This document shows, in pieces, positions 33,777-61,094 of a stretch of 64,000 bases of DNA (position 1 is its first letter; every line of letters starts with the position of its first letter). Made by a program: the position numbers and the translations under genes. Source of the stretch: Candidatus Kapaibacterium sp. Lineage in GTDB: Bacteria; Bacteroidota; Ignavibacteria; Kapaibacteriales; UBA4661. The stretch covers positions 1 to 64,000 of the forward strand of contig JALONG010000034.1 of NCBI GenBank assembly GCA_025455065.1, in the 5' to 3' direction. Below the pieces are notes generated by a model that saw nothing but the letters and a program-made list of their open reading frames with translations, had not been told where the DNA came from and did no database searches.

Positions 33777-36011
33777 TTACATACCTTTGATAAACCGCGC
33801 AATGGTGCGCTTTCCCGTGCTTGTGCCAATCTGCACCACATACATCCCCGGTGGTAATGTACGAACATCCAGCGTGAGCAATGCGCCCTGCAAGCCGCTT
33901 GTTTCCACGCTTTGCGGCACCCCTTTTGCATCAAAAATGCTCACCGATTGAACAATCTCCGTTCCTATGCGGCTTTGAAGCATCACCACATCGCTGGCAA
34001 CGGACGGATAGACCGCAAAGCCGCTTGGTTGCTCATTATTCGTTGATTGTTCGGAAACGCTTGTTATTGTCGTACAGCGTTGTGTGGTTTGAAAGAGAAC
34101 TTTGGAAGTATAGGGTTGAAGCGTGATTGAGCCGCATTTCTCGTTACCACGTGTGTCCAGAAAAAGCGTATCGCCGAGATTCTGCGTGAGGACGTTATCG
34201 GTTTGATTCATAAAAAGGCGCGGCGTGGCAGACGCGGAAGTCTGCGACGGCGCAAAGTAGCGTGAGTTGCGGTCATTTCCCTTGGCTTGCCAAGCAGCGA
34301 AGCCGTATTCGACGGGGCTGTTGCCCTCGTAGCGTTGTGCGAATCGTCCTGTGGTCGCGGGCGTGTAGTAGAAGTTAGAATCCAAAACTCCCGCATTAAA
34401 CGTACCAGTGAAGTCGGATTGTTTGATAAGATATGAAGCGCTGTTGAAGGCAAGGAAGACGTTATTTTTGACCACCATGCCCGTAATTGCGTCCCTCTGC
34501 GCCTGTGTCCCATTCAAATCCAGGCAATAATTTGAACCAAAAACAACGTTGTTTGTGATAGTATTGTTCTGGTTTCCAGCGTTTTGGAATATACCTTTTT
34601 TGGTGTGATTATACACAGTATTTTCGTGAACGGTGCAGTTTTTCACCAAAAAATCAAAATAGATACCAGGCGTGAGAAATTCACCATTGCGCGTTCCTTC
34701 GGTGTTTCCGTCGCTGTATTCCACAAAATTATTGCGAAAGGTATTGAACTGTGCTTGCCCGCCGAAACTTTTGAGTGCCGCGCCGTCGTTATTGAGCAGC
34801 ATCGTGTTTCGCACAATATTCCGCTCAATCATGTTATACTTGCCGTCCGCCGAAATGCCACAATATCCGGCACTATCAACAAGATTGTGGTGAACGTGGT
34901 TACTGTCGGAAAACCCCAAATGAACTGCCGAAAGATTGTACTGCCGTCCTACGCCGCTATTGCGAAAAGGTCCCGTGCGAAGGAAAGTATTGTGCCGAAC
35001 AATATCCCGCCGTCCCTGATTTTTCGCCATTGCCAAGCCTTCCACTTCGGTAAAGGTACAGTATTCAATCACTGCGCCAATGCCGTTTGACTCCACGCCG
35101 TAGAGTGTCTGACGGTTAAAAGTACAGCGCGAAATTTTGACGTTTGTAGAGCTTGCCTCTGCTATCTGAATGCCCGCCGTTCCTTGCTTCTCGAAGGTTA
35201 TGTCTTGCACCGTGATATTGCTCACACCGCGAGAAATCCGTAATCCTGTGGCATACACCGACGCTTCAGCAATCACCACACTAGGATTGATGCCGTTTGG
35301 AGCGCGATACGTCAATGTTCTGCTTGCGGCATCGTATTTCCATTCTTTTGCTGTGTCGAGGTGGGCAATGTTGTCATAGAGAAAATATCCGAAGCCGTTC
35401 AAAGCGTCTAATTCACTGGAATCCGCATAAGTAATCGTTGTGCCGGAAAATGCCCCGACGCTCTCCAATTCCCAGCACCATTGCGCAGTGTGAATGCAGA
35501 GTTTTGAACCAAGAACAAGATTGCTCGTAACCCGCGTTAAATCACGGTCGGTGAGGCTTCGTTTTGTAGCAGAATCCAAGAACAAATACTGCCCTTCGTT
35601 GGGATACCGCGCCAGAACTTGCGCTTTGTCGTTGATGAAAAAATTGAGAACGGTTTGCGAAACACTTGCTTGGTAATTGCTTCCGTTCAGCGACCAAGCA
35701 GTGATGCGCTCTGCACCGCTCAAAACAGGATTTGAGCCTGTGCCAAAAGCCGCGAAAACAATGGGCTGCGCGGCAGTGCCGGATTGGTTTACCGTCAGGC
35801 TTCCGCGGAAGGTGTCGCCGCGGCGAAAAAAGACGGTATCTCCCGCAACGAGTGTTTGTGCGGACAGTTTGGTCAATGTCTGCCAAGCCGCACTGGTACT
35901 TGTTCCGCTATTGTTATCATTGCCGTTGGATGAAGAAACGTAGTAATTGCGGGCTGTGAGGGATTGCAGAGGAAGGGCAATCGTCAAGAACAGAATAATG
36001 AGCGTTTTCAT
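33777..36011 (-). CDS. Right-handed parallel beta-helix secreted protein (T9SS CTD, variant)
   Basis: NYYVSSSNGNDNNSGTSTSAAWQTLTKLS...GDTVFFRRGDTFRG; many short beta-helix repeats; C-terminus MYVVQIGTSTGKRTIARFIKGM. Confidence 0.82.
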   Translation of the reverse strand: MKTLIILFLTIALPLQSLTARNYYVSSSNGNDNNSGTSTSAAWQTLTKLSAQTLVAGDTVFFRRGDTFRGSLTVNQSGTAAQPIVFAAFGTGSNPVLSGAERITAWSLNGSNYQASVSQTVLNFFINDKAQVLARYPNEGQYLFLDSATKRSLTDRDLTRVTSNLVLGSKLCIHTAQWCWELESVGAFSGTTITYADSSELDALNGFGYFLYDNIAHLDTAKEWKYDAASRTLTYRAPNGINPSVVIAEASVYATGLRISRGVSNITVQDITFEKQGTAGIQIAEASSTNVKISRCTFNRQTLYGVESNGIGAVIEYCTFTEVEGLAMAKNQGRRDIVRHNTFLRTGPFRNSGVGRQYNLSAVHLGFSDSNHVHHNLVDSAGYCGISADGKYNMIERNIVRNTMLLNNDGAALKSFGGQAQFNTFRNNFVEYSDGNTEGTRNGEFLTPGIYFDFLVKNCTVHENTVYNHTKKGIFQNAGNQNNTITNNVVFGSNYCLDLNGTQAQRDAITGMVVKNNVFLAFNSASYLIKQSDFTGTFNAGVLDSNFYYTPATTGRFAQRYEGNSPVEYGFAAWQAKGNDRNSRYFAPSQTSASATPRLFMNQTDNVLTQNLGDTLFLDTRGNEKCGSITLQPYTSKVLFQTTQRCTTITSVSEQSTNNEQPSGFAVYPSVASDVVMLQSRIGTEIVQSVSIFDAKGVPQSVETSGLQGALLTLDVRTLPPGMYVVQIGTSTGKRTIARFIKGM

Positions 36012-36130
36012 AGCAGTATCTCCGAGTGAGGTCAAAAAAAGCATTCCATGATGCAAGCATTACATGAAGCAGAATTATTCCAAAGGTTCCGGTTTCCTTT
36101 ACCCTAAGAAAAACCGCATAAAACCTCACT

Positions 36131-41501: not shown

Positions 41502-42941
41502 TTGGTTTTTGACTACTTTTTGAATGTAATACCGACTATGAATCTACGTTTTTCTCGAATGTTGTTGATTTCTGCCATTGCGCTGACCATTACTATCATT
41601 TTTACGGTCAGCGGATTTATCGAAATTCTCCCCGCTCCTTTGGCACTTATTGGGATTATGGTATTTCATGTTGTTGCCTTTGTGCTTCTTTGGCGCTTTC
41701 GGAAACAGCAAGATAACGAAATTGCATCGTTGATAGATTCGGCACAACACCTGTGTTTAGACGAAACAGGCTTGCATATCGTTCCGCCCGCCATTGCAGC
41801 CAATAGTGAATTTACCCCTCTCGTTACCACCATAACCAATGTTGTACAGCGCTTGAACAAAGAGTATTCCGAGCGTCATACCCCAACAGACGAAACAACC
41901 GATTTACTCAACCAAGTTCTGGCGCGGGAGAAAGCACATCAACAACAGTTGGTGGGAACGTTCAAAATTTTGAGTGATTCTATGCACCTCCTTGCTCAAG
42001 GCGCATTAAATGTGGATGTGGACCCGGAAAAAGGCGGCATTGCACGGCAACTGTTTGTGGATTACAACACCTCGGTTGAAACCATTCGCAGCATGGTTCT
42101 CCGCATTATGGAATCGGTATCGGGTAGCGTCCTTATGAGTGAGGATATTGCTCGCTCGGCACAAAGCGTCTTGGAAGTTTCCAAAGCGCAAGAGGAACTC
42201 TCCAGTTTTGTGGCAGAATCGGCAGGATTTGTCGGGCAAGTTGTGACCAGCAACACCCAAAGCACCACCCAAACGGCGGAAATAGCGAAACGCGCTATGG
42301 CAATGGCGCAGGAAGGCTCTTCTAAACTGACCGAAACGATGCAAAGTAATGAGCATATCGTACGGGCAACCCAACAAAGCGGAGAAATGCTGAGTTCACT
42401 GGCACGAAACATCGAAGACATCAGCACGATTACAGCAACAATCAACGAAATTGCCGACCAAACGAACCTTCTGGCGCTGAATGCCGCAATCGAAGCTGCA
42501 CGTGCAGGTGAGCAAGGACGGGGCTTTGCGGTTGTTGCCGATGAAGTCCGTAAACTCGCCGAGCGCACCACGCAAGCCACAAAGGAGATTTCCGGTAAAA
42601 TCAAAACTGTGCGCCAAGATTCCCAAGAAGCCACCAAAGCAATGGAAGGCTCTATGAACGCCGTACAGCAAGGCGCACAGCTTAATCAACAAGTCGAACA
42701 AGTCTTTACCGAAATTTTATCCACGATAAAAAATGTCGTTGATAATATTTCACAAGTTGCCGTTTCCACCGAAGAGCAGTATGCCACTGTGCAAGCAATT
42801 ATCGAACAAATCAACAACCTCGCCTCACAGGCAAAAGATGCCAACACCAAAATCAGTGAAATTTCCGGCTACGCCGAAAGTTTGATGTATATGAATGAGC
42901 ATCTGAAAGAATCGGTGGACTTCTTTAGGTTTGAGGGGTAG
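41502..42941 (+). CDS. Methyl-accepting chemotaxis protein without extended sensor domain
   Basis: Signalling hairpin [57 protein letters not shown]; two close TM helices. Confidence 0.92.
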
Positions 42942-42955
42942 GGAGAAACAATAAC

Positions 42956-43903
42956 TCACCGCACACGCCGCCGTGAACTCGTTATCCCCACCACAATCCC
43001 AATACCATCGCCCGTAACATTCCACTTTGCATTCACGCCGCCAATGCTGAAAGGATTACTGGTTGCAAAGGCATTCCGATAGGTGCGTTCATATTCCGCA
43101 AAGGCTTCGTCAAATTGATACAAAACCACGTGCGGATTGGTAATTGTTCCCCAGCCTCTGCCAGGAATAAACGGAATCTCTACCAATCTACTGAGTAAGC
43201 GAATTTTACCGCTAAAATCGGCTGCTGAGGCAGTAACAGTACTGGCATTTTCTAAAAGCTGGTTTTCAGCACGCAAAAAGGCAGATACGGTGTCCGCCCC
43301 GGGACCATGAAAAACTCCAGCACGGTAGGCAACCCGCGCTTGTGGTGTAAATGTAACTTCGTATTGATAGAATCGCCTATCTGCATTAGTTCTTGGGTCT
43401 TTCTGCTCAACAATAATTTCTCGTACCGAATCCATAGCCACCGGGCGCGGAACAAACGTTTCCACTCGCGCCCGTAAGCCCTGCCACTCGGCAATAATTT
43501 CGTACCGTTTGCCTTCTTCCGCTATGAGCGGCGGCATAGTTCGGTAATACGAGCGCGGGGTTTGGAAGATAACGCCTCCATTCGCATTCAGAATGCGCAT
43601 CGGCTCAAGTTGCATCGGGTATTCCCGTCCGTCCACACGGAGGCGTATCGTTGCCGTCGTAATAGCAGAGCGCTCGGCATTGACGGTATCAAAAAGCGGC
43701 AGCGTTCTGGCGACATAGAGGCTGGAAATAGGCTCTCCGGCAACGAGTGACCCAAAAAGCAGAATTTTCGGGACGTATTCCGGTTGGATGCTTGGCGCTA
43801 TCACTTGTTCGCAGGAAAACAAGCCGAAAGACAGGAGCATCACGGGAAGAGCAGAAATGCCACGCAGCAAACGCTGAAGCGGTCTTTGGAGAGTCTTGTT
43901 CAT
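42956..43903 (-). CDS. DUF4249-family lipoprotein (module copy 2)
   Basis: Lipoprotein signal LLSFGLFSCEQ; paralogous to 48269-49267; directly follows TonB-dependent receptor. Confidence 0.75.
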   Translation of the reverse strand: MNKTLQRPLQRLLRGISALPVMLLSFGLFSCEQVIAPSIQPEYVPKILLFGSLVAGEPISSLYVARTLPLFDTVNAERSAITTATIRLRVDGREYPMQLEPMRILNANGGVIFQTPRSYYRTMPPLIAEEGKRYEIIAEWQGLRARVETFVPRPVAMDSVREIIVEQKDPRTNADRRFYQYEVTFTPQARVAYRAGVFHGPGADTVSAFLRAENQLLENASTVTASAADFSGKIRLLSRLVEIPFIPGRGWGTITNPHVVLYQFDEAFAEYERTYRNAFATSNPFSIGGVNAKWNVTGDGIGIVVGITSSRRRVR

Positions 43904-43941
43904 GACGTCATTCACAACAAATGTGGTATCAAAATGCAGTG

Positions 43942-46329
43942 TCAAAATGTACAGGAAATTCCTATCGTTGGCAAAAAGGGCAGAAGGGTATATTGCTTCA
44001 GCGCCGTAACGTTGCCGCGCTCATCCACCCACACCGTGAAGGGATTCAGACGATTATACACGTTGTAAATGTTGATGGATGCCTCAAATGGCAGATTAAA
44101 CCACTGGAACTTATACATCAAATTCAGGTCTAAGCGATGATAATCCGGCATTCGGTAGCTGTTGCGCTCGGCGTAGAGGTACGAAAAGGGGCGTGTTGCG
44201 GCATTGGTGAAAGGGTTTTTACTGGCAACGAGTCCCGGAAGAAATGCAAGGTCTAATACTCCAATAGGCATCGTAAATGCCTGCCCTGTGGCGTATATCC
44301 ACGTTGCGCCGATTTCCCATTTGTCGCTCAGTTTGTAGGACAGCGCCAGCGTGAGGTCATGCCTGCGGTCATAGCGCGGGAAAAAGGGTCTTCCGCCGTT
44401 AATTTCGGCGAATTGCCGTGTTGCCCACGAAAGCGTGTAACCTATCCAACCCGTGAATGCACCGATTTGTTTATTCAGAAAAACTTCCGCACCGTAGCTT
44501 TCGCCCGTGCCTGCTGTGAGAAGCCCTTCCACCGTTGCTCCCGGCACAAACCGCGCTCCTTCACGAAATTCGTAGATATTCTCTAAGCGCTTGTAATAGC
44601 CTTCAACCGTCAGTAAATACTCACGGTTGAAGAGATACGTTTCCAGCGCTGCCACATAGTGCATGGAGCGCGAGGGCAAAAGTTTATCCGTCGAAGGAAA
44701 CCATGTGTCGGTCGGCAGAGCAATCGTGTTTTCTTGAAGCAGATGCAAGAACTGATGCGCCATTGCGTACGCCGCTTTCAGTGTTGTTTCATCGCTGAGT
44801 TTGTAGGCAAGGGCGGCTCTCGGCTCAAGACGGAAATGCGAACCACTTTGGAAATACGCTGCTCGTGCGCCGAGATTCAATGCCAAAGACGGCGTAATTT
44901 CCCATTCATCCTGCACAAAGCCCGCTATTTCGAGTGCTTGCAATTGCTGAAGAGGGCGGTTGCGCTCAGGATTTGCGGTTATTTGCAAAATCCCCGCGCT
45001 ATTGAGAATACTCACCGTGAAATCGTGCCGCGTTGCTTCGATACCGCCTTTGACAGAATGCCCCTCCACCGGGAACCACTGCATTTCGCCTTTGAACGTG
45101 AGGTCGTTAATGGCGGTTGTGGTTTCAAATTGTTTGGAGTTCTTCAGCGCTGCTGTTTCAAAGGCAGCATAGCGGAAATCGTATTGGGTGTAAATGAGCG
45201 AAAACGTGCTGAAAAGCGACGGCGAAAAAATATGCATCCAGCGCAGATTGCCCGTGGCATTGCCCCAGCCGAGTTCAAACGTTGTTTCGTCAGGGCGGTT
45301 CAGGCGCGGCAGAAGGTCGCGCCCGAAATACCCACTCAAAAAGATATGGTCGTTGTCGTCAATGCGGTAATTAACTTTTGCGTTTAGGTCGTAAAAATTA
45401 TAGCGAGGCACATCTCTACCCGTCGGGTCGGCAGCAAAGCCGATAATATCGAAGTACATTCTGCGCCCCGAAATCATAAAACTCGCATTGGTGCTGATAG
45501 GTCCTTCCAAAAGTGCCTTCGCGCTAATGAGCGAAATTCCTGCCGCACCGCCGATTTTTTCCTTTGAGCCTTCTTTCATCGTGAGGTCAATCACACTGGA
45601 AAGCCTACTGCCGTATTCAGCAGGAAAAGCGCCTTTAATGAGTTTCACATCACTGACGGCATCGGGGTTAAATGCACTCAGGAAACCGCCCAAATGCTGA
45701 GGATTATACACGGTTACGCCGTCCAAGAGAATCAAATTCTGGTCGGGAGTACTGCCACGGATATACAAGCCGCTCGAAAGCTCGCTTGCCGCCTTTACTC
45801 CGGGCAAAAGCTGGAGTGTGCGGAAAATATCGCGCTCACCGCCGATGGCAGGCATTTGGCGCAGGAACTCCATCGGGATATTCACCGTGCTGACCGCCGC
45901 TAGTGATGACTGACGGTCTGCCTGCACGGAGACTTGCTGCAATCGTGCGGCTTCATTCACCAAACTGAGATTGAGTTTTGTTGAACTATTGGTTATATCC
46001 AGAGTGCGCCGCAACGTTTTGAAGCCGATTCTTCGCACAACGAGTGTGTATGCGCCCTCAGGAAGACTGCTCAGACTGTAAAAGCCGTATTTATTCGAGA
46101 GCGTACCACGAAAAGGTTTGGGAAGATTAGCGGAATCCGGCATCACGCCTTGATAGAGCGCTACCGAAGCACTGATGACGGCTTCTCCGGTTTTTTCTTC
46201 AGTGATAGTGCCGGAAAGGGTGCAAAGAGTGGGTGAGGGTTCTTGCGCAAATGAGGGTACAAAGAGAGCCAAGAGCAACAAAAGCGCAACCCCAAAGTGG
46301 CGCAAAGCAAGCAAAAAAGACATATTCAC
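43942..46329 (-). CDS. TonB-dependent receptor with carboxypeptidase-like regulatory domain (module copy 2)
   Basis: LSGTITEEKTGEAVISASVALY...; plug GLYIRGSTPDQNLILLDGVTVYNPQHLGGFLSAFNPDAVSDVKLIKGAFPAEYGSRLSSVIDL. Confidence 0.92.
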   Translation of the reverse strand: MNMSFLLALRHFGVALLLLLALFVPSFAQEPSPTLCTLSGTITEEKTGEAVISASVALYQGVMPDSANLPKPFRGTLSNKYGFYSLSSLPEGAYTLVVRRIGFKTLRRTLDITNSSTKLNLSLVNEAARLQQVSVQADRQSSLAAVSTVNIPMEFLRQMPAIGGERDIFRTLQLLPGVKAASELSSGLYIRGSTPDQNLILLDGVTVYNPQHLGGFLSAFNPDAVSDVKLIKGAFPAEYGSRLSSVIDLTMKEGSKEKIGGAAGISLISAKALLEGPISTNASFMISGRRMYFDIIGFAADPTGRDVPRYNFYDLNAKVNYRIDDNDHIFLSGYFGRDLLPRLNRPDETTFELGWGNATGNLRWMHIFSPSLFSTFSLIYTQYDFRYAAFETAALKNSKQFETTTAINDLTFKGEMQWFPVEGHSVKGGIEATRHDFTVSILNSAGILQITANPERNRPLQQLQALEIAGFVQDEWEITPSLALNLGARAAYFQSGSHFRLEPRAALAYKLSDETTLKAAYAMAHQFLHLLQENTIALPTDTWFPSTDKLLPSRSMHYVAALETYLFNREYLLTVEGYYKRLENIYEFREGARFVPGATVEGLLTAGTGESYGAEVFLNKQIGAFTGWIGYTLSWATRQFAEINGGRPFFPRYDRRHDLTLALSYKLSDKWEIGATWIYATGQAFTMPIGVLDLAFLPGLVASKNPFTNAATRPFSYLYAERNSYRMPDYHRLDLNLMYKFQWFNLPFEASINIYNVYNRLNPFTVWVDERGNVTALKQYTLLPFLPTIGISCTF

Positions 46330-46358
46330 GGGAGAGGAAAGATATATGACTAAGTGTG

Positions 46359-47015
46359 TTATGGATTAAACGGATGCCACGAGATGCCGAGCATTGCTAG
46401 CCCATGGGTGAGACCAAATGCACTTATTTTTCCCTGCACCGAAAAAGCAGAACCGAGTTTGTACTTAACCGCACCAAACGCTGTGAAACTTTGATATTGC
46501 ATGGCGTATGGAGATTCGGGGAAACGAAGAATATTACCAACAAAAATCGCCGGCGTAATCGTTACGCCCTCAATAGCACACCATCCTGCACCAATATCAA
46601 ACGCGAGGTTGCCGTCTGTTGGTATGGTGTAAGTGATTCCGGCAGAAAGAAGTTGGTTGCCCCAAAACGGACCCAAAGTTGATGTTTGCGGAAAGACAAA
46701 ATTCGGGTCGGAAGAACTCAAAATGGGGTAACGGCGTTTGACATCTTCGACAGACGAAGCGCGACGCGGGTCGTCGGCTACCAATCTTGTCCATGAGCCG
46801 TACAGACCGAATCCGGCATAGACGGGAATTTGCAGGGTCAATCCCCAAGACGTAGTAGGGTTTGTCGGCAGAAAGCCGCCGCCGCCTTCGAGAGTGAGTA
46901 TTTGAGCTGAAGAATAGCTACCGAACGAAACGAATATTGCCATAGCGAGAAGATACTTTTTCATTGTTTTTTGTGAATGTTGTGAAAAAATAATATGCCC
47001 GTTACCAACCTTCAC
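46359..47015 (-). CDS. Small outer-membrane beta-barrel-like protein (module copy 2)
   Basis: Signal peptide; paralogous to 51749-52408. Confidence 0.65.
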   Translation of the reverse strand: MKVGNGHIIFSQHSQKTMKKYLLAMAIFVSFGSYSSAQILTLEGGGGFLPTNPTTSWGLTLQIPVYAGFGLYGSWTRLVADDPRRASSVEDVKRRYPILSSSDPNFVFPQTSTLGPFWGNQLLSAGITYTIPTDGNLAFDIGAGWCAIEGVTITPAIFVGNILRFPESPYAMQYQSFTAFGAVKYKLGSAFSVQGKISAFGLTHGLAMLGISWHPFNP

Positions 47016-47041
47016 CTATACAAAAAAGAAACGGGCATATT
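46992..47041 (-). terminator. Terminator/attenuator between lipoprotein and barrel genes (copy 2)
   Basis: AATATGCCCGTT...AACGGGCATATT 12-bp perfect stem, T run on the minus strand. Confidence 0.6.
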
Positions 47042-47057
47042 AAATACTTTACTTCTC

Positions 47058-48287
47058 TTACCAAGATAGAATCATGCTGGGGTTGCCCATAGCATACGTT
47101 CTAAATGGAGCAATAGGAAAAAACACATCGTCATAGTGTACAGTCATTTGACTCAACACATTATCCTGAATTTTGTATTTGACCTTAAATGAAGGCGAAA
47201 TACTAATGTTATCGCTGAGTTTGAAGGTTGCAGATAATCCAAGTTCAACCTCTGCTCCACCATCTTCTTCAAACCACTGCCAGTGCAAACTTTTGTGAAA
47301 ACCAGTATTCCAAGGTGCACCATAGCTTGTTGAAAAATACTGACCATTACAAAGATGACGTGGAACGGCTCCTGCCAAATTAAAACGCCCCCACTGCGCT
47401 GGATCGCCACCCGTAGCAGGCACCGAGGTTACAATGGCATAAAACTCAGGATCACCTAAAATCCAGTGTTCGATAAACCACGTTCCTTCAAAAGCATCTG
47501 AGAAAGAAAGGCTTGTAATGCTCATGTAAGAATTTTGCAACTGCGCACCACCCTTTGGAGAAGTCATACGCGGCCGGTTCAAATTCTCTGCAACCGCTTG
47601 CTTCAACTGCCCATTCATTTCTGTGCGTTCGTTGGGAGCAATAACAATCACAGGGCGAGTTTTAGCAATAGCCTCGTTCACGATGTACTCTTTGCCTTGT
47701 GCGTCGTAGGCGATAACTTCACTCGGCATTTTGTCAATATCCTGACCTTTTGCCAACACAGGCACAAACGTTACCAATGGCGAAGTTTTGCCATCCCATT
47801 TTTCGGCATTATACCAGTACAAATGCGCGTTAGCGGCATAGTGACGTGAGTATTGCTCTAATGCTGCTTGTACATCATTTGCTTGCAAATTAAATTTTGC
47901 ACCATTACGAGCAACCGTAGCCGTCCAATTTCCCGAAGCACCAAGGGCGCTTGTAAGGTTTTGGTCGGTATTCAAATTATTCCACAGGACATTTGTGCAG
48001 CCATCAAACTTGCGCATAGCTTGTATATGGACAGCTTTTGCTGTGTTTGACTCAGCAAGCGTTGATGCTACGGACTTTGCGAGGGCTGCGAGTTGAGCAT
48101 TTGTCTCGCCGTTTTTCATCGCCAAAACCAATTCATCACCTTTTGTTGATGATGAAGCAACACTTTTATCAACAACTTGCGTTCCTCCCACAATAGGACT
48201 ACTTGCCTCATTACAACTTACCACCAAACCACCAACAATACCAGCCAACACCAAGGCTTTAACAGCCTTCAAACGAAATAACGACAT
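47058..48287 (-). CDS. Secreted lipoprotein of unknown function (module copy 2; possibly DUF3103-like)
   Basis: MSLFRLKAVKALVLAGIVGGLVVSCNEAS lipobox; HLYWYNAEKWDGKTSPLVTFVPV and RPVIVIAPNERTE shared with 52496-53725. Family suggestion is weak. Confidence 0.6.
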   Translation of the reverse strand: MSLFRLKAVKALVLAGIVGGLVVSCNEASSPIVGGTQVVDKSVASSSTKGDELVLAMKNGETNAQLAALAKSVASTLAESNTAKAVHIQAMRKFDGCTNVLWNNLNTDQNLTSALGASGNWTATVARNGAKFNLQANDVQAALEQYSRHYAANAHLYWYNAEKWDGKTSPLVTFVPVLAKGQDIDKMPSEVIAYDAQGKEYIVNEAIAKTRPVIVIAPNERTEMNGQLKQAVAENLNRPRMTSPKGGAQLQNSYMSITSLSFSDAFEGTWFIEHWILGDPEFYAIVTSVPATGGDPAQWGRFNLAGAVPRHLCNGQYFSTSYGAPWNTGFHKSLHWQWFEEDGGAEVELGLSATFKLSDNISISPSFKVKYKIQDNVLSQMTVHYDDVFFPIAPFRTYAMGNPSMILSW

Positions 48288-49267
48288 AAACAACTCCAAA
48301 AAATAGAGTGTGAAAAAGAGTGCCACAACTCTTTCCTTCGTGCGTCTCTTTGCGTATATTGCAAGTGGAAGACTCGAAAAACTTTCCACTTGCCCGCTTG
48401 GAGAATGATGTGAGCAGCAAATTGGACATTCCAGCGAACATTCACTCCACCAACGGTAAATGGGTCGGTTTGGCGAAACCCACGAGTGTAGCTATTGTAA
48501 TACTCCGCAAAAGGCGCGTCGAAGCTATACACAACGGCATGGGGATTTTGCGGGTCTTGTAATCCTAACGTGTTTGAGAACGATTGATATATCACTTGGC
48601 TTTGGAGGGTGATTGTACCTGAACTGTCAGCACTTGTCGCTGTTTTCAACAATCCTGCCGTTATGCCGTTGCGAGTAGTTGAGACCGTATCGGCATCTCT
48701 GCCTGTCAGCACACCCACTTGATAGGCTTCTCCCGCACGTGCAGCAAAGCGGGCTTCATAGCGAAATTCTTTATTAGACGGTCCCCGGTTTTCGGTTGTG
48801 GTCGTGATAACCTCTCGCACACTCAGTATGGACGGCTTTCGCGGCACGGTCGTACTCACGCGAGCCGTCTTGCCGTTCCATTCCGCAATAATTTCATAGC
48901 GTACACCTTCTTCCGCAATGATATTTCCAGCTTGATAATAAGCCCGGGCATCGCTCCACAGCATCGTTCCTGTTGATGAAAGTTCGCGTTGAGGTTGCAA
49001 TGTCATTCGGTATTCCTGCCCATTCACACGAAGTCTAACCGTTGCCGTCGAAATAGCAGCAAGTTCGCGGCTAATAGGCTTTGTCGGCTCAAGCGTGCGC
49101 GAAAGGCGGATATTCCGAATCGGCTCACCAGCGACTAATGCGCCCTCCATAAATATCTGCTCTTTGTAATCAAGAGGAATTGCAGGATTAAGCGCTTGCT
49201 CTAAACTCTGACCGCAGGAAAACAGCAAGGGAACCAATGCAAGCAAGAAAAAACGTCGTAAAAGCAT
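48269..49267 (-). CDS. DUF4249-family lipoprotein with replaced C-terminus (module copy 1)
   Basis: Lipobox LVPLLFSCGQ; co-linear with 42956-43903 up to GGVNVRWNV, then runs into the duplicated leader sequence. Confidence 0.7.
   Translation of the reverse strand: MLLRRFFLLALVPLLFSCGQSLEQALNPAIPLDYKEQIFMEGALVAGEPIRNIRLSRTLEPTKPISRELAAISTATVRLRVNGQEYRMTLQPQRELSSTGTMLWSDARAYYQAGNIIAEEGVRYEIIAEWNGKTARVSTTVPRKPSILSVREVITTTTENRGPSNKEFRYEARFAARAGEAYQVGVLTGRDADTVSTTRNGITAGLLKTATSADSSGTITLQSQVIYQSFSNTLGLQDPQNPHAVVYSFDAPFAEYYNSYTRGFRQTDPFTVGGVNVRWNVQFAAHIILQAGKWKVFRVFHLQYTQRDARRKELWHSFSHSIFWSCLCRYFV
48324..48421 (-). repeat. 98-nt leader repeat upstream of lipoprotein gene (copy 2)
   Basis: Identical by eye to 53761-53858; contains GCAAGTGGAA...TTCCACTTGC hairpin at 48361-48393. 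Confidence 0.85.
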
Positions 49268-49317
49268 GGTATGAGGGGGACTTTGGATGCAAGAAATTGT
49301 TTCAGCGTAAAATATCA

Positions 49318-51708
49318 TCAAAACGAACACCGCAAGCCGACAGTAGGCACAAACGGCAGCAAGGTTAATTGCCGCAGACGGCTTGCTCCGTCGAAGTTTT
49401 CTACCCAAGCAGTGAAAGGATTGAGGCGGTTGTAAACGTTGTACAGATTGATGGAAAACTCAAATGGCAAACCGCCAATCCAAGGAAATTTATATGTCGC
49501 GTTCACATCCAAACGATGATAATCCGGCAAGCGAAACGCATTGCGGTCGCCATAGACTTGTGATGAACCGGAAACAACATTACGTGTTAATGCGGGGTCA
49601 AGCGTAATGCCGAATGGAACGCTCAGAACATCAATCAACCCGTTTGCCATCGTAATGGCTTGACCACTTGCGTATGTCCATGTTACGCCAAAATCCCAAC
49701 GGTCATTGAGTTTGTAGGCAATGGCGATTACAATATCATGCCGCCTGTCATAACGGGGAAAGAAGGGCTTACCGCCGTTCAGTTCGGGGAAAAGCCGTGT
49801 TGTCCACGAGAGCGTGTAACCAATCCAGCCTGTAAATTGACCAAGTTGTTTATTGAGAAAAAACTCCACACCATATGCCTCGCCCGTGCCGCTTGTCATC
49901 AGTGCTTCGGCGATTGTTCCCGGCACAAAACGAGCATCCTCGCGGAACTCATACAAATTTTCCATGCTTTTGTAATAGCCCTCCACCGTCAAAAAATACT
50001 CACGGTCAAACAAGTACGTTTCTATACCTGCCACATACTGCGTCGAACGAGCAGGCTTCAAAATTTCGGTGGAAGGAAACCATGTATCGGTGGGAAGCGC
50101 TACACTGTTATCTTGGAGCAGATGCAGGAACTGACTTGCAACCGCATATGCGGCTTTGAAGGTGAGTGTTTCGGTTGCTTTGTACGCCAGCGAAGCGCGT
50201 GGTTCTAAGCGGAGATGACTACCACGCTCAAAATACGAGGCACGAAGCCCGATATTTGCCGCCAAATTTTCGGTAATATCCCATTCATCCTGCACATACC
50301 CCGCAGCTTCCAGCGCTGTAACACGTTGCAAAGGGTCTGCACGCTCATCAATGCCGCCTCTGCCTTGGAGAATACTGCTCCCGCTCACAATGTCGGTGAC
50401 AAAATTATGCCGCGTTGCTTCTGCACCAAATTTGATAACATGATTCGGCACAGGAAACCATTGCAGTTCGCCACGCAGCGCTATATCTTGTATCCGCGAT
50501 GCCGTTTCAAACTGTTTTGCGCCGCCTGTGGCTTCGGAGAAATACGCTGCATAGCGAAAATCATAATTGGTATAAACCAACGAAAGCGAACTGAAGAGCG
50601 TGGAAGAGAAAATATGCGACCAACGGAAGTTCCCCGTTGCATTACCCCAATCCAGTTCAAATGTCGCATCATTAGGGCGATTGACGCGGGGCAGAATATC
50701 GCGCCCGAAATAGCCGCTCAAGAAAAATTGATTATTCTCATCCAAACGCAGGTTCACTTTTGCATTGGCATCGTAAAAATTATAGCGAGGCAGAATGCGC
50801 CCCCCGGGGTCAATAGCCGCCGCCGCAATATCAAAATACATTCGCCGCCCCGATACCATAAACGTCGCATTGCTGCTTATCGGTCCTTCCAAAAGGGCGC
50901 TGGCACTGAGCAAAGATATTCCCGCCGTGCCGCGTATTTTCTCTTTCGAGCCTTCTTTCATGCTCATATCCAACACACTCGACAAACGGCTTCCGTATTC
51001 CGCCGGAAACGCACCCTTGATAAGCCGTACATTGCTCACGGCATCGGCATTAAACGCGCTCAGGAAGCCGCCTAAATGCTGGGGATTATAGACCGTAACG
51101 CCGTCCAACAAGACCAAATTTTGGTCGGGCGAACCGCCGCGCACGTACAAGCCGCTTGAAATCTCGCTGACAGACTTCACGCCCGGCATAAGTTGAAGCA
51201 CACGGAAAATATCGCGCTCACCGCCCAAAGACGGCATTTGTTTGATAAAATCCATGGAAACATCCACTGTGCTGACAGCAGCGCCTTTGTCACGTTCTGC
51301 CTGCACAGAGACACTTTCCAAGCGCACCGTATTCGGCTGAATCGTTACGTCAATCCGCTCCGAAGCATCACCCAGACTGAGCGCACGAGTAAATGTAGCC
51401 AAGCCCACACGTCGCACAACAAGCGTATATGCGCCGGAGCGCAGCGACGGCAGCGAATAAAACCCGTACTTATTCGAGACAGCGCCGCGCATGGGCTTTT
51501 GCGCCGTGCCTTCCTTGTACGAACCTTCGTAAAGCGCGACACTTGCGCCGATAACAAATTCGCCCGATTGCGCTTCACGAATAACACCGGAAACCGTCAG
51601 GGATTGCTCTTGTGCAAAGAGTATATGTGGGCTTGCAGATAAAACGGCAACAAGCCACAGAACTATTACGCCAAGTCGCCGAGATGTGTTGAAAAAGAGA
51701 GGAGACAT
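49318..51708 (-). CDS. TonB-dependent receptor with carboxypeptidase-like regulatory domain (module copy 1)
   Basis: Plug GLYVRGGSPDQNLVLLDGVTVYNPQHLGGFLSAFNADAVSNVRLIKGAFPAEYGSRLSSVLDM; paralogous to 43942-46329. Confidence 0.93.
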   Translation of the reverse strand: MSPLFFNTSRRLGVIVLWLVAVLSASPHILFAQEQSLTVSGVIREAQSGEFVIGASVALYEGSYKEGTAQKPMRGAVSNKYGFYSLPSLRSGAYTLVVRRVGLATFTRALSLGDASERIDVTIQPNTVRLESVSVQAERDKGAAVSTVDVSMDFIKQMPSLGGERDIFRVLQLMPGVKSVSEISSGLYVRGGSPDQNLVLLDGVTVYNPQHLGGFLSAFNADAVSNVRLIKGAFPAEYGSRLSSVLDMSMKEGSKEKIRGTAGISLLSASALLEGPISSNATFMVSGRRMYFDIAAAAIDPGGRILPRYNFYDANAKVNLRLDENNQFFLSGYFGRDILPRVNRPNDATFELDWGNATGNFRWSHIFSSTLFSSLSLVYTNYDFRYAAYFSEATGGAKQFETASRIQDIALRGELQWFPVPNHVIKFGAEATRHNFVTDIVSGSSILQGRGGIDERADPLQRVTALEAAGYVQDEWDITENLAANIGLRASYFERGSHLRLEPRASLAYKATETLTFKAAYAVASQFLHLLQDNSVALPTDTWFPSTEILKPARSTQYVAGIETYLFDREYFLTVEGYYKSMENLYEFREDARFVPGTIAEALMTSGTGEAYGVEFFLNKQLGQFTGWIGYTLSWTTRLFPELNGGKPFFPRYDRRHDIVIAIAYKLNDRWDFGVTWTYASGQAITMANGLIDVLSVPFGITLDPALTRNVVSGSSQVYGDRNAFRLPDYHRLDVNATYKFPWIGGLPFEFSINLYNVYNRLNPFTAWVENFDGASRLRQLTLLPFVPTVGLRCSF

Positions 51709-51748
51709 GATAGCTTGAGTTCAAGTAGCAAAAGAGTGAGGTACAATG

Positions 51749-52408
51749 TTACTTTGTCGTCGATGCAAAAAGGTCTGCCAACGATGCTTTGCTGCCCCAA
51801 GGCATATAGCTGATACCGACGGTTGCGACAAAATGTTCCGTCCCGAAGGCGGCTATCTTGCCTTGCAGGGCGAAGTTGTCGGAAAGGTTGTAGCGGGTTT
51901 GAATGAGACCGCTTAAACGCTGGGGGCTGGGAGATTCAGGTCGGGACATAAATCCGAGTTGGCTTCTGCTAAAATTATTTCCCGCATCGGGAATACCAGT
52001 TCCTGCCACTAGCAAACCATACTCAATAAACGACCACCCAACACCGATTTCAAGGCTTAAAGATTCTGTCATGATAGGCTTGTAATGTGCATATAGGGCA
52101 AAAACGTTATTGCCCCAATAAGAATTTTTTAAGGTAAGTTGCGGGAAAACATAGTCCGGATGCAACTGGTCGCGGACAGGATATTTATCAATCACGGCTT
52201 GCTGCTCTTTATTATCTGCCCAGCGATAATAGCCAGCGCTTACGGAAAAACGTTCTGTGATTGGTATTTGTAGGCTTCCGCCTAATGTCCACGAAGGTAA
52301 GTGCGTCGGGACTGCCGCTGCACCACTTTCGAGGGTGATACTTTGCGCGTTTGTTTTAATGCTGCACATACTCAGCATGAATAAGGCGATTATTCCAAAA
52401 AGTCTCAT
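51749..52408 (-). CDS. Small outer-membrane beta-barrel-like protein (module copy 1)
   Basis: Signal peptide; QSITLESGAAAVPTHLPSWTLGGSLQIPI..., paralogous to 46359-47015. Confidence 0.65.
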   Translation of the reverse strand: MRLFGIIALFMLSMCSIKTNAQSITLESGAAAVPTHLPSWTLGGSLQIPITERFSVSAGYYRWADNKEQQAVIDKYPVRDQLHPDYVFPQLTLKNSYWGNNVFALYAHYKPIMTESLSLEIGVGWSFIEYGLLVAGTGIPDAGNNFSRSQLGFMSRPESPSPQRLSGLIQTRYNLSDNFALQGKIAAFGTEHFVATVGISYMPWGSKASLADLFASTTK

Positions 52409-52455
52409 ACTAAGCCAATACTAAGATTGTTTGCAATATCTGAATTAAAAAAACA

Positions 52456-52485
52456 CCCTGCACGGAGGTTTTATTCCGTGCAGGG
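52456..52485 (-). terminator. Rho-independent terminator after lipoprotein gene (copy 1)
   Basis: CCCTGCACGGA...TCCGTGCAGGG perfect 11-bp stem, followed on the minus strand by TTTTTTT. Confidence 0.8.
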
Positions 52486-52495
52486 CAAAATTTAT

Positions 52496-53725
52496 TTACC
52501 ATTCTAACTGAAAACTGGGCATACCAGTATAATAAGTACGACTTCCGACTGGATCATCGAAATTCACAGTTGCAATGCCTAAGTTGTCATCTTCATCTTT
52601 ACCAGATACCTTGCCCGTTACTGTTACAGAGCCATTATCAACTTTGTATGAACCAGAAACACTAAATTCCCAATTAATACCTGGATCTCTCTCCATCCAT
52701 TTGAAAACAAAGGTTCTGTATAAAGATTGATTCCAAGTAGCTTGTCGTATCCACCAACCATCCCAATAAATTTGCTGACCGTCGCAACGCCACCAATCTA
52801 CACCACACTCCCACGAACCCCATTGAAAGGATTCTGCCCCCGGGTTTTGTGCATTCACGCTGTGAATGGATACCCAAAACTCAGGATTTCCATTAAACCA
52901 ACCTTCGTTAGATTGCCCAGAAAAACTTGTCCAAATAAGCTTGAGATTTGTTGAACTATTTAGTGTTGCTTGACGCTCTTTTGCAGCCTGAGCTAATTTA
53001 GCCTGGTTATAGGCATCAAGAACCTGACCACTCGCATCAGTTCGCTCATTCGCATTGATAACAATAACCGGATTCTTCAAAGCAAATTCTTTGTCCACCG
53101 CGTATTTCTTGCCTTTTGCGTCATAGCCGGAAAGGATGATGTTCTCTTTTTCGGGGTCGCAACCAACGGGAACAAACGCCACAATCGGGGTTGTGGTTTT
53201 GTCCCACTTTTCGGCATTAAACCAGAACAAATGAACATTGGCGTTATACGCTTTGGAAGCACGATTAACAGCAGCACTAACAGCTTCACTGGAAGCAAAA
53301 ACCGATTTATCAGCTTTCTGAGCAACAAGTGCCGACCAATTACGAGCATTGCTCTGTGCTGCACGAGCGTTAATCGAACTGTTATTGTTCAACGCCGACC
53401 ACAAAACTTCCGTATCACCGTCAAAGCGCTCCAACGCTGCTTTGTGTAACGCCTGCTGCATAGCACCGTCGTTCACGGTAACAGCAACCGCTTTTGCCAA
53501 CGCAATCAAGTCATTATTGACTGCTTGTTTATCCGCAGCAAACGTGAGCGTTTCCCAATGTTTCGGCGGAGTAGTATTTTTATCCGCAACTTTGGTAATC
53601 TCTTGCACGTTTGCACTTGCAAGAGGAGATTCAGCAACATTCGCCCCATTACAACCTACCACCAAACCACCAACAATACCAGCCAACACTAAGGCTTTCA
53701 CAGCCTTCAAACGAGAAATAAACAT
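52496..53725 (-). CDS. Secreted lipoprotein of unknown function (module copy 1)
   Basis: MFISRLKAVKALVLAGIVGGLVVGCNGAN lipobox; HLFWFNAEKWDKTTTPIVAFVPV and NPVIVINANERTD shared with copy 2. Confidence 0.6.
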   Translation of the reverse strand: MFISRLKAVKALVLAGIVGGLVVGCNGANVAESPLASANVQEITKVADKNTTPPKHWETLTFAADKQAVNNDLIALAKAVAVTVNDGAMQQALHKAALERFDGDTEVLWSALNNNSSINARAAQSNARNWSALVAQKADKSVFASSEAVSAAVNRASKAYNANVHLFWFNAEKWDKTTTPIVAFVPVGCDPEKENIILSGYDAKGKKYAVDKEFALKNPVIVINANERTDASGQVLDAYNQAKLAQAAKERQATLNSSTNLKLIWTSFSGQSNEGWFNGNPEFWVSIHSVNAQNPGAESFQWGSWECGVDWWRCDGQQIYWDGWWIRQATWNQSLYRTFVFKWMERDPGINWEFSVSGSYKVDNGSVTVTGKVSGKDEDDNLGIATVNFDDPVGSRTYYTGMPSFQLEW

Positions 53726-53760
53726 AAACAACTCCAAAAATAGAGTGTGAAAAAGAATAC

Positions 53761-53858
53761 CACAACTCTTTCCTTCGTGCGTCTCTTTGCGTATATTGCA
53801 AGTGGAAGACTCGAAAAACTTTCCACTTGCCCGCTTGGAGAATGATGTGAGCAGCAAA
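53761..53858 (-). repeat. 98-nt leader repeat upstream of lipoprotein gene (copy 1)
   Basis: Identical by eye to 48324-48421; hairpin at 53798-53830. Confidence 0.85.
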
Positions 53859-53932
53859 CCATGATTGTGTACCATGATTGATAACTTACGGTACAAAAAT
53901 ATGTCATTTCTGAGCAAGAAAGCAAGCCGCTT

Positions 53933-54006
53933 GTCATGAACGCTGCGATTTTTGTCATGAGTGTATAGCGTTTTTGTATGAACGCGGCAATTTTTGTCAT
54001 GAACGC
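53933..54006. promoter_or_regulatory. Array of ~21-bp phased direct repeats (GTCATGAACGC type)
   Basis: GT(C)ATGA motifs starting at 53933, 53954, 53976, 53996. Confidence 0.45.
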
Positions 54007-54206: not shown

Positions 54207-55544
54207 TCATCGCTCCTTAGGGAGCATTTCTGCCACAAACTTCGCCCACAACCGCGTCGAAACATCTACTCGGTCGCCATTGCTCAGAGTAGCAAAGTAA
54301 TCACGGGCAGATACAAAATGCTTGCGGTTGATGGCGTGTGAGCGGTGAGTCAGATAAAAGAGTGATGACGGCAAATCTGCAAGGCATTTTTGCAAGGAAC
54401 GCGAAACAGTCAAAGGCTCGCCTTTGGTGTGGTAAATGATAGTATTCCTGCCGTCGGCTTCGAGGCGAATAATCTGCTCCCACGCCAGACTGTGTAAGGT
54501 TTTATCACTTGCCTTAAAAGTCCAATATCCTGCCTGTGCCGCAAGGTTTTTTGCAAGAGTCGGTGCTTGAGCAGAATAATCCTTGCTGCTCTTATTGATG
54601 CTGTCATCAGTTCCAGCCTCAGTATCCGCAGTTGTAGCGGCATCTCCACCATTCTCTGCCTTTATCCTGTGAGCAGCAAAAGCCCGCTCAACTGCCCGTG
54701 CCAGATGCTCAGGTTCAACAGGCTTCACAAGATAATCCAACGTTTCATACTGAAATGCCTGTTGAGCAAAATGAGGATGAGAGGACACAATGATAACTTC
54801 AAAGGTACGATGAGGAAAGACATCCAGAACATCAAAGCCCGTCCCGCCAATAAGGTCAATATCAAGAAACACAATATCCGGCGCTCCCTGCTGAATAGCC
54901 GTAATGGCAGAATCAACAGAAAAGGCTTCTGCGACAATACTGATACGGTCGTGAAAAATATCCGTGATTTTTTGACTCAGAGCGAATCGTTGTGCTTTTT
55001 CGTCATCAACGATAATTACCCGTAAAGAAGCGGGCTTGGGCTTTTCCTCCGACACAGGTGCGGCGGCGGAAGGTATTTCCGGCGGCAGTATCGCTTGTGA
55101 CAATCGTGCTTTGCGTTTCGCCATCACGGTCTGAAGCGCAGCAATGATATCTTCCGGCAAAAAGGGCTTGACGAGGTATTCCGAAGCGCCATACCGCATA
55201 GCTTCTTGTGCATAGTGGAATCGCGCTTGAGCAGACATAACGATACAATCAAAATTCCTGCCCTGTACCTCTGCCAACCCTTTGAAAGACAGCCCACCGC
55301 GTAGTTGAATATCCAACAGCACAATATCAGGCTTCTCCGCGCTAATAATCGTAATAACTTCTTCTACCGATTCACAATGCCCGACAATATGAATCATTGG
55401 AAAGTGTTTGTTGATGACATATTTCAATGATTTGTAAATCATAAAATCATCTTCCACAATCACAAGACGATACTGTTCAAGATGATACTGCTCAAAAGCA
55501 TCATCGGGAATTGTGTGCGGCTCTTCGTGGGCGCTTGAGTTCAT
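54207..55544 (-). CDS. Response regulator with two REC domains and a LytTR DNA-binding domain
   Basis: REC1 YRLVIVEDDF...IVLLDIQL...YLVKPF; REC2 LRVIIVDDEKAQ...IVFLDIDL...YLVKPVEP; LytTR FYLTHRSHAINRKHFVSARDYFATLSNGDRVDVS. Confidence 0.9.
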   Translation of the reverse strand: MNSSAHEEPHTIPDDAFEQYHLEQYRLVIVEDDFMIYKSLKYVINKHFPMIHIVGHCESVEEVITIISAEKPDIVLLDIQLRGGLSFKGLAEVQGRNFDCIVMSAQARFHYAQEAMRYGASEYLVKPFLPEDIIAALQTVMAKRKARLSQAILPPEIPSAAAPVSEEKPKPASLRVIIVDDEKAQRFALSQKITDIFHDRISIVAEAFSVDSAITAIQQGAPDIVFLDIDLIGGTGFDVLDVFPHRTFEVIIVSSHPHFAQQAFQYETLDYLVKPVEPEHLARAVERAFAAHRIKAENGGDAATTADTEAGTDDSINKSSKDYSAQAPTLAKNLAAQAGYWTFKASDKTLHSLAWEQIIRLEADGRNTIIYHTKGEPLTVSRSLQKCLADLPSSLFYLTHRSHAINRKHFVSARDYFATLSNGDRVDVSTRLWAKFVAEMLPKER

Positions 55545-55713
55545 GGTGTTTCCTGTCATTGGAGGTTTCTTGTTTGGCAAGGGTTGATGAGAATTGTACA
55601 GATAAGGACGCATACAAAACCGAAGTCTGATTCTACCACACAGACAGAAATTATGTCGTATAAAAAAAATTCAAGCCACAAAATTCTGCAATAATTTTCT
55701 TCCAAGCAAATCC

Positions 55714-55784
55714 AATGACCGAGACCCCCATTCTAATGACCGGGAACAAAAAGTAATGACCGAGACCCCCTTTCTAATGACCGG
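55714..55784. promoter_or_regulatory. Four phased AATGACC direct repeats upstream of the REC-REC-LytTR gene
   Basis: AATGACC at 55714, 55735, 55755, 55776 (spacing 21/20/21). Confidence 0.5.
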
Positions 55785-60858: not shown

Positions 60859-61006
60859 GGAGTTGCGTGGGATTTGGTTACTTAGGAATAGCGAAAGAAT
60901 AATTATTCAATCTTTGACGTAGCACAGTTCATTCTTGTCTGTGCCATTAACGCCGCAAGGCGTAATTACCGAAAGCGTCATAAAAACAGACTTTGAAGAC
61001 TATTCG

Positions 61007-61094
61007 CTTCGCTCATTTTGGACACAGACAAGAATGTCTGTGCTACGAAGCTTCGCTCATTTTGGACACAGACAAGAATGTCTGTGCTACGAAG
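61007..61094. repeat. Perfect 44-bp tandem duplication with internal hairpin
   Basis: CTTCGCTCATTTTGGACACAGACAAGAATGTCTGTGCTACGAAG x2; CACAGACA-AGAA-TGTCTGTG 8-bp stem. Confidence 0.9.

Follow-up and report, generated by a model that had tools for sequence, protein, structure and literature searches.

A tandemly duplicated TonB receptor-DUF4249 module with a DUF3103-like lipoprotein, a neighbouring LytTR regulator and a conserved leader in Candidatus Kapaibacterium

Organisation and divergence of the two modules

The 64-kb stretch of DNA analysed here (the window) belongs to a genome of 5.6 Mb in 131 contigs, and carries on its minus strand two four-gene modules arranged head to tail. In module A, a 409-aa lipoprotein (52496..53725) is followed by a small outer-membrane beta-barrel of 219 aa (51749..52408), a TonB-dependent receptor (TBDR; 49318..51708) and a DUF4249 lipoprotein (48269..49267). 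Module B consists of a second 409-aa lipoprotein (47058..48287), a 201-aa barrel (46359..46964), a receptor (43942..46329) and a DUF4249 lipoprotein (42956..43903). Both receptors match CarboxypepD_reg, Plug and the TonB barrel over the Pfam cut-offs, and the two DUF4249 proteins score 46.8 (A) and 43.2 bits (B) against a cut-off of 28.5. Coordinates, strand, domains and pairwise identities thus all bear out the preliminary description of two modules with the same order and similar products. That description had overlooked a further member of the unit, a response regulator gene immediately upstream of module A (54207..55613, minus strand). At the other end of the locus, a gene for a methyl-accepting chemotaxis-type protein (41502-42941, plus strand) is convergent with module B, with 15 bp between its end and that of the DUF4249-B gene. 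The window also encodes a secreted protein that by eye has a parallel beta-helix look and a possible C-terminal sorting domain (33777-36056, minus strand), and contains a 44-bp unit in two exact tandem copies detected by TRF (61006-61094).

Global pairwise alignment of the A and B proteins gives identities of 41.2% for the lipoproteins, 30.6% for the barrels, 62.8% for the receptors and 42.9% for the DUF4249 proteins; the duplication is therefore old. Most of the A and B DNA can be aligned just in pieces, at 69-87% identity. The exception is a block containing the leader and signal peptide of the lipoprotein gene (53643..53858 in module A and 48205..48421 in module B, both minus strand), which is 95.0% identical over 219 columns and had likewise gone unnoticed in the preliminary description. 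Such a block within an old duplication implies recent homogenisation, and the simplest account would be a recent gene conversion, or copying, of these 219 bp.

The homogenised block bears on the neighbouring gene as well. Block B begins inside the 3' end of the DUF4249-A gene, which overlaps the lipoprotein B gene by 19 nt, and as a result DUF4249-A ends in ...WNVQFAAHIILQ..., translated from leader sequence. Among the C-termini of 11 DUF4249 proteins compared, a WNVxGxGxGxFxG motif stands near the end of DUF4249-B and of most others, with the two most distant proteins keeping part of it only; DUF4249-A reads through leader B (48269-48460, minus strand) and lacks the motif. The DUF4249 partner may therefore be impaired in module A.

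The two lipoproteins resemble the Pfam family DUF3103 (PF11301) in matching part of its profile, but they fall just under its gathering cut-off of 25 bits (21.9 for A, 24.4 for B) and differ in their C-terminal half; the lipoproteins of two relatives exceed the cut-off, with 31.0 (G001) and 36.3 bits (G275). The C-terminal half had been singled out as the most diverged part and as a possible seat of ligand specificity. Its identity between A and B (34.7%) is indeed lower than that of the N-domain (43.6%), yet greater divergence is seen in the linker that follows the signal peptide (29.0%) and over the entire barrel. In the structure model, confidence is mostly about 70-94 in the N-domain and mostly below 58 in the C-terminal half. 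We found no PDB match to the lipoprotein fold by structure or sequence search, the C-terminal half being poorly modelled, and a search of a literature library returned no paper on DUF3103.

Barrel A is predicted to form eight strands, and a Foldseek comparison of its model with the PDB retrieved the OprF N-domain (3.0e-6), OmpA and OmpX; the model was built from three sequences and has a mean pLDDT of only 62. The predicted fold and strand number would thus be those of the 8-stranded OmpA/OmpX/OprF barrels. Unlike these, the window barrel has no Pfam family match, and its long loops (residues 67-99 and 130-161) lie outside the model. A second small barrel-like family, also without a Pfam assignment, occurs in tandem arrays right after the lipoprotein at four other loci (L036:6007-9071, L037:10707-14035, L039:10796-12204 and L014:9478-10734).

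Candidate regulatory features upstream and downstream of the lipoprotein genes

The gene upstream of module A encodes two receiver domains (Response_reg, 1.4e-33) and a LytTR DNA-binding domain (2.8e-8), the domain combination of a LytTR response regulator, and has no kinase gene next to it. A LytTR gene lies directly upstream of the lipoprotein at seven loci: in the window, on two other contigs of the same genome (C69 and C83), twice in G001, and in G002 and G008. All three unlinked lipoprotein loci of the source genome are thus preceded by such a gene, while there are only 31 LytTR domains in its 5.6 Mb. Two loci are exceptions: G006 has a divergent gene upstream that only resembles the window regulator (E 1.7e-6), and in G009 none is adjacent.

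LytTR regulators such as AgrA, ComE and VirR bind, as dimers, 9-bp direct repeats spaced about 21 bp apart. Between the regulator gene and lipoprotein A we found direct repeats of this phasing (ATGACAAAAA..., 53931..54006, minus strand; TRF period 21, 3.6 copies), a candidate LytTR operator array. The array gives 27 phased matches as against 0.14 in shuffled sequences, none of 200 shuffles reaching this level. Direct repeats with a phase of about 21 bp or multiples of it are equally beyond shuffles (0/200 each) upstream of the lipoprotein at C83, at one locus each of G001 and G002 (G001b, G002a) and in G009; by the same test they are weak at C69 and in G008, and were not detected at the other G001 locus (G001a). 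Of 711 intervals of source-genome sequence, only 3 reach 10 phased matches, namely the array of module A, that of C83 and the stretch 5' of the regulator gene. The last contains a second 21-bp array (CGGTCATT..., 55714-55783; TRF), whose motif differs from the operator candidate of the lipoprotein. The LytTR domain beside 21-bp-phased repeats suggests a likeness to AgrA, ComE and VirR, from which the window regulator differs in its two receiver domains and in having no adjacent kinase.

Downstream of the phased repeats lies a candidate promoter element, TAnnTTTG, represented in module A by TATTTTTG (53894..53901, minus strand). It stands 95-134 nt upstream of the leader core (core3) in seven of eight copies, and is absent in module B, where no promoter motif was found upstream of the homogenised block.

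The leader core itself, AAGCGGGCAAG followed by a hairpin and by the nearly invariant 16-nt CTTGCAATATACGCAA, is conserved in three species. In module A it reads AAGCGGGCAAG-hairpin-AATATACGCAA (53784..53844, hairpin 53830-53798; match to our covariance model R1, 8.3e-14), and the same model identifies core B (48347..48407, hairpin 48393-48361), both on the minus strand. In a scan of 99 genomes, R1 scored strongly only at the eight lipoprotein leaders (E<=1e-11); one leader copy, in G004, is cut by a contig end, and two weak matches (G000:C24 and G088, E 0.02-0.06) were treated as chance. No Rfam 15 family exceeded its gathering threshold in the window, and four leader loci gave just chance-level matches at E<=10.

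Within the hairpin, three pairs are changed on both sides with pairing kept, and the covariation score of 0.238 compares with 0.134 in shuffled data (1/500) and with no more than 0.124 when slid. As there are only six distinct sequences, covariation is limited, and we regard it as suggestive of a conserved RNA hairpin and not as proof. A further possible pairing, between the invariant GCCCGC and GCGGGC of the leader, shows hardly any variation. On inspection, and when single sequences are folded, a closing helix between the 5' arm (CTTTCATGC-like) and GCACGAAGG looks plausible, but we do not claim it.

On the 3' side of both lipoprotein genes lies a hairpin resembling an intrinsic terminator, with a 13-bp stem and a T-run (52454..52487 after A, z -5.9; 46985..47042 after B, z -2.9; minus strand). 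Besides A and B, the lipoprotein genes G002a and G002b are followed by a strong hairpin and T-run, and all four are in TBDR-type modules; by inspection, none was seen after the lipoprotein genes of C69, G001a and G006. If these hairpins terminate transcription, the lipoprotein would be made in excess over the receptor and DUF4249.

Recurrence of the linkages in other Bacteroidota

The pairing of a TonB-dependent transporter with DUF4249, recognised as a known one in the preliminary description, has been reported as an operon conserved in dozens of genera by a paper that still calls DUF4249 uncharacterised (PMC11003636). The lipoprotein and barrel had been proposed as a constant addition to this pair, and the constancy did not survive a survey of neighbourhoods. 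The source genome has eight DUF4249 matches (two in the window, one on C69, five elsewhere), and at the five others (L015-L019) none of these lipoprotein or barrel families occurs in the stretches read, which contig ends limit at L015, L017 and L018. Nor does the lipoprotein require the pair: at both G001 loci and in G006 it precedes arrays of small proteins of the second barrel-like family, with no TBDR in the stretch read. On C83 there is a lipoprotein remnant, comprising the N-terminal part only and 85% identical to C69 (L013:8078-8590), with regulator, repeats and leader kept. This fourth, truncated copy points to birth and death of these genes. Since the lipoprotein is also found without a TBDR nearby, its job need not be import.

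What the survey does support is repeated association. C69 has, in this order, lipoprotein, two small outer-membrane-type proteins, barrel, DUF4249 and receptor; the congener G002 has lipoprotein, receptor, DUF4249, lipoprotein and a 179-aa protein; in G275, from a distant family, the lipoprotein is followed by a 180-aa lipoprotein, a TBDR and DUF4249 (E 7.8e-23); and in G009 it is followed by a receptor truncated where the contig ends. These linkages are a plain tally of the loci read. G114 has a DUF4249 gene three genes downstream of the lipoprotein, with no TBDR between. The lipoprotein family is present in 14 of 396 sampled Bacteroidota genomes, and a small secreted-looking protein 3' of it recurs in G111, G130, G278, G222 and a marine-biofilm contig (L053); some of these proteins have weak OMP_b-brl matches below the cut-off, so that "barrel" is partly inferred there. 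The four-gene unit is therefore not constant, but its linkages recur. On trees with modest support, lipoprotein-linked receptors do not form one clade, and TBDR linkage needs three changes on the lipoprotein tree.

A proposed regulated import system and its alternatives

Pairs of TBDR and DUF4249 are widespread in Bacteroidota; one type is BT2172-BT2173, a TonB-dependent transporter with DUF4249 (PMC11003636, which cites a 2023 bioRxiv preprint by Price et al.). In the window modules, too, a DUF4249 gene lies next to the TBDR gene and on its strand, both identified by Pfam. They differ from it in adding a DUF3103-like lipoprotein, an 8-stranded barrel, a LytTR regulator, phased repeats and the leader, and in the lost C-terminal motif of DUF4249-A. 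On our best reading the core is of a known kind, here in a variant with a DUF3103-like lipoprotein, an 8-stranded barrel, LytTR control and a private leader. Dedicated regulation of the lipoprotein appears to be undescribed.

We propose, with about even confidence, that the locus encodes a TonB-dependent import system that is regulated by LytTR and includes an abundant accessory lipoprotein. The receptor would be the energised pore, and DUF4249, following published proposals, its surface partner or lid. The DUF3103-like lipoprotein would be an abundant accessory, probably surface-located, whose task is to capture or present the ligand, with the 8-stranded barrel as an accessory outer-membrane partner. 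As judged from the architecture, the LytTR regulator would bind the 21-bp-phased repeats and switch on the TAnnTTTG promoter, giving a transcript that begins with the hairpin leader, which may tune lipoprotein expression. Termination after the lipoprotein gene would make the lipoprotein the most expressed product, the barrel, receptor and DUF4249 being reached by read-through. Module B, for which no separate promoter motif was found, is probably transcribed together with A.

The main alternative is that two independent functions share one locus: an ordinary TBDR-DUF4249 importer and a lipoprotein/barrel cassette under LytTR control that evolves separately (such as a surface antigen or adhesin that diversifies), with nothing but shuffling to link the two. 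We take this possibility seriously while leaning against it. It would accommodate the lipoproteins of G001 and G006 with their barrel-like arrays and no TBDR, the different order on C69, the three changes in TBDR linkage, the birth and death seen in the C83 remnant and the homogenised block, and the terminator-like hairpin standing between the lipoprotein and the rest. Against it, linkage to TBDR/DUF4249 appears again in a distant family (G275) as well as in G002 and G009, and the tandem copies have kept their whole order at 31-63% protein identity.

A second alternative concerns regulation only and is otherwise compatible with the import reading. The conserved leader could be a DNA operator, for LytTR or another protein, and not an RNA element, as its inverted-repeat arrangement, the near-invariance of CTTGCAATATACGCAA and the small set of sequences behind the covariation would allow. 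We consider this less likely than not: TAnnTTTG lies upstream of the leader in nearly all copies, the phased repeats are already separate operator candidates, and paired changes in the stem that preserve complementarity would not be required of a fixed protein site.

A SusCD-type glycan utilisation locus, which the CarboxypepD_reg-bearing receptors and their lipoprotein partners recall (as in SusC/SusD and RagA/RagB), is very improbable and was rejected, because the SusC/RagA model (TIGR04056) reaches no more than 40.9 and 38.2 bits where the cut-off is 368, Pfam finds no SusD domain in the eight proteins, and there is no glycan enzyme among them.

Returning to the regulated import system, we also put forward a bolder and more doubtful extension. 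The leader might be an undescribed cis-regulatory RNA, possibly ligand-sensing, that is dedicated to the DUF3103-type lipoprotein operons of this genus and layered on the LytTR switch, and the lipoprotein might at the same time represent a new kind of accessory for DUF4249-type TonB transporters. The regulator, operator array and leader together offer a handle on the system, as the inducer of the LytTR operon would point to the substrate. Such a variant would also place DUF3103 in a functional context for the first time and provide a candidate for a new leader RNA.
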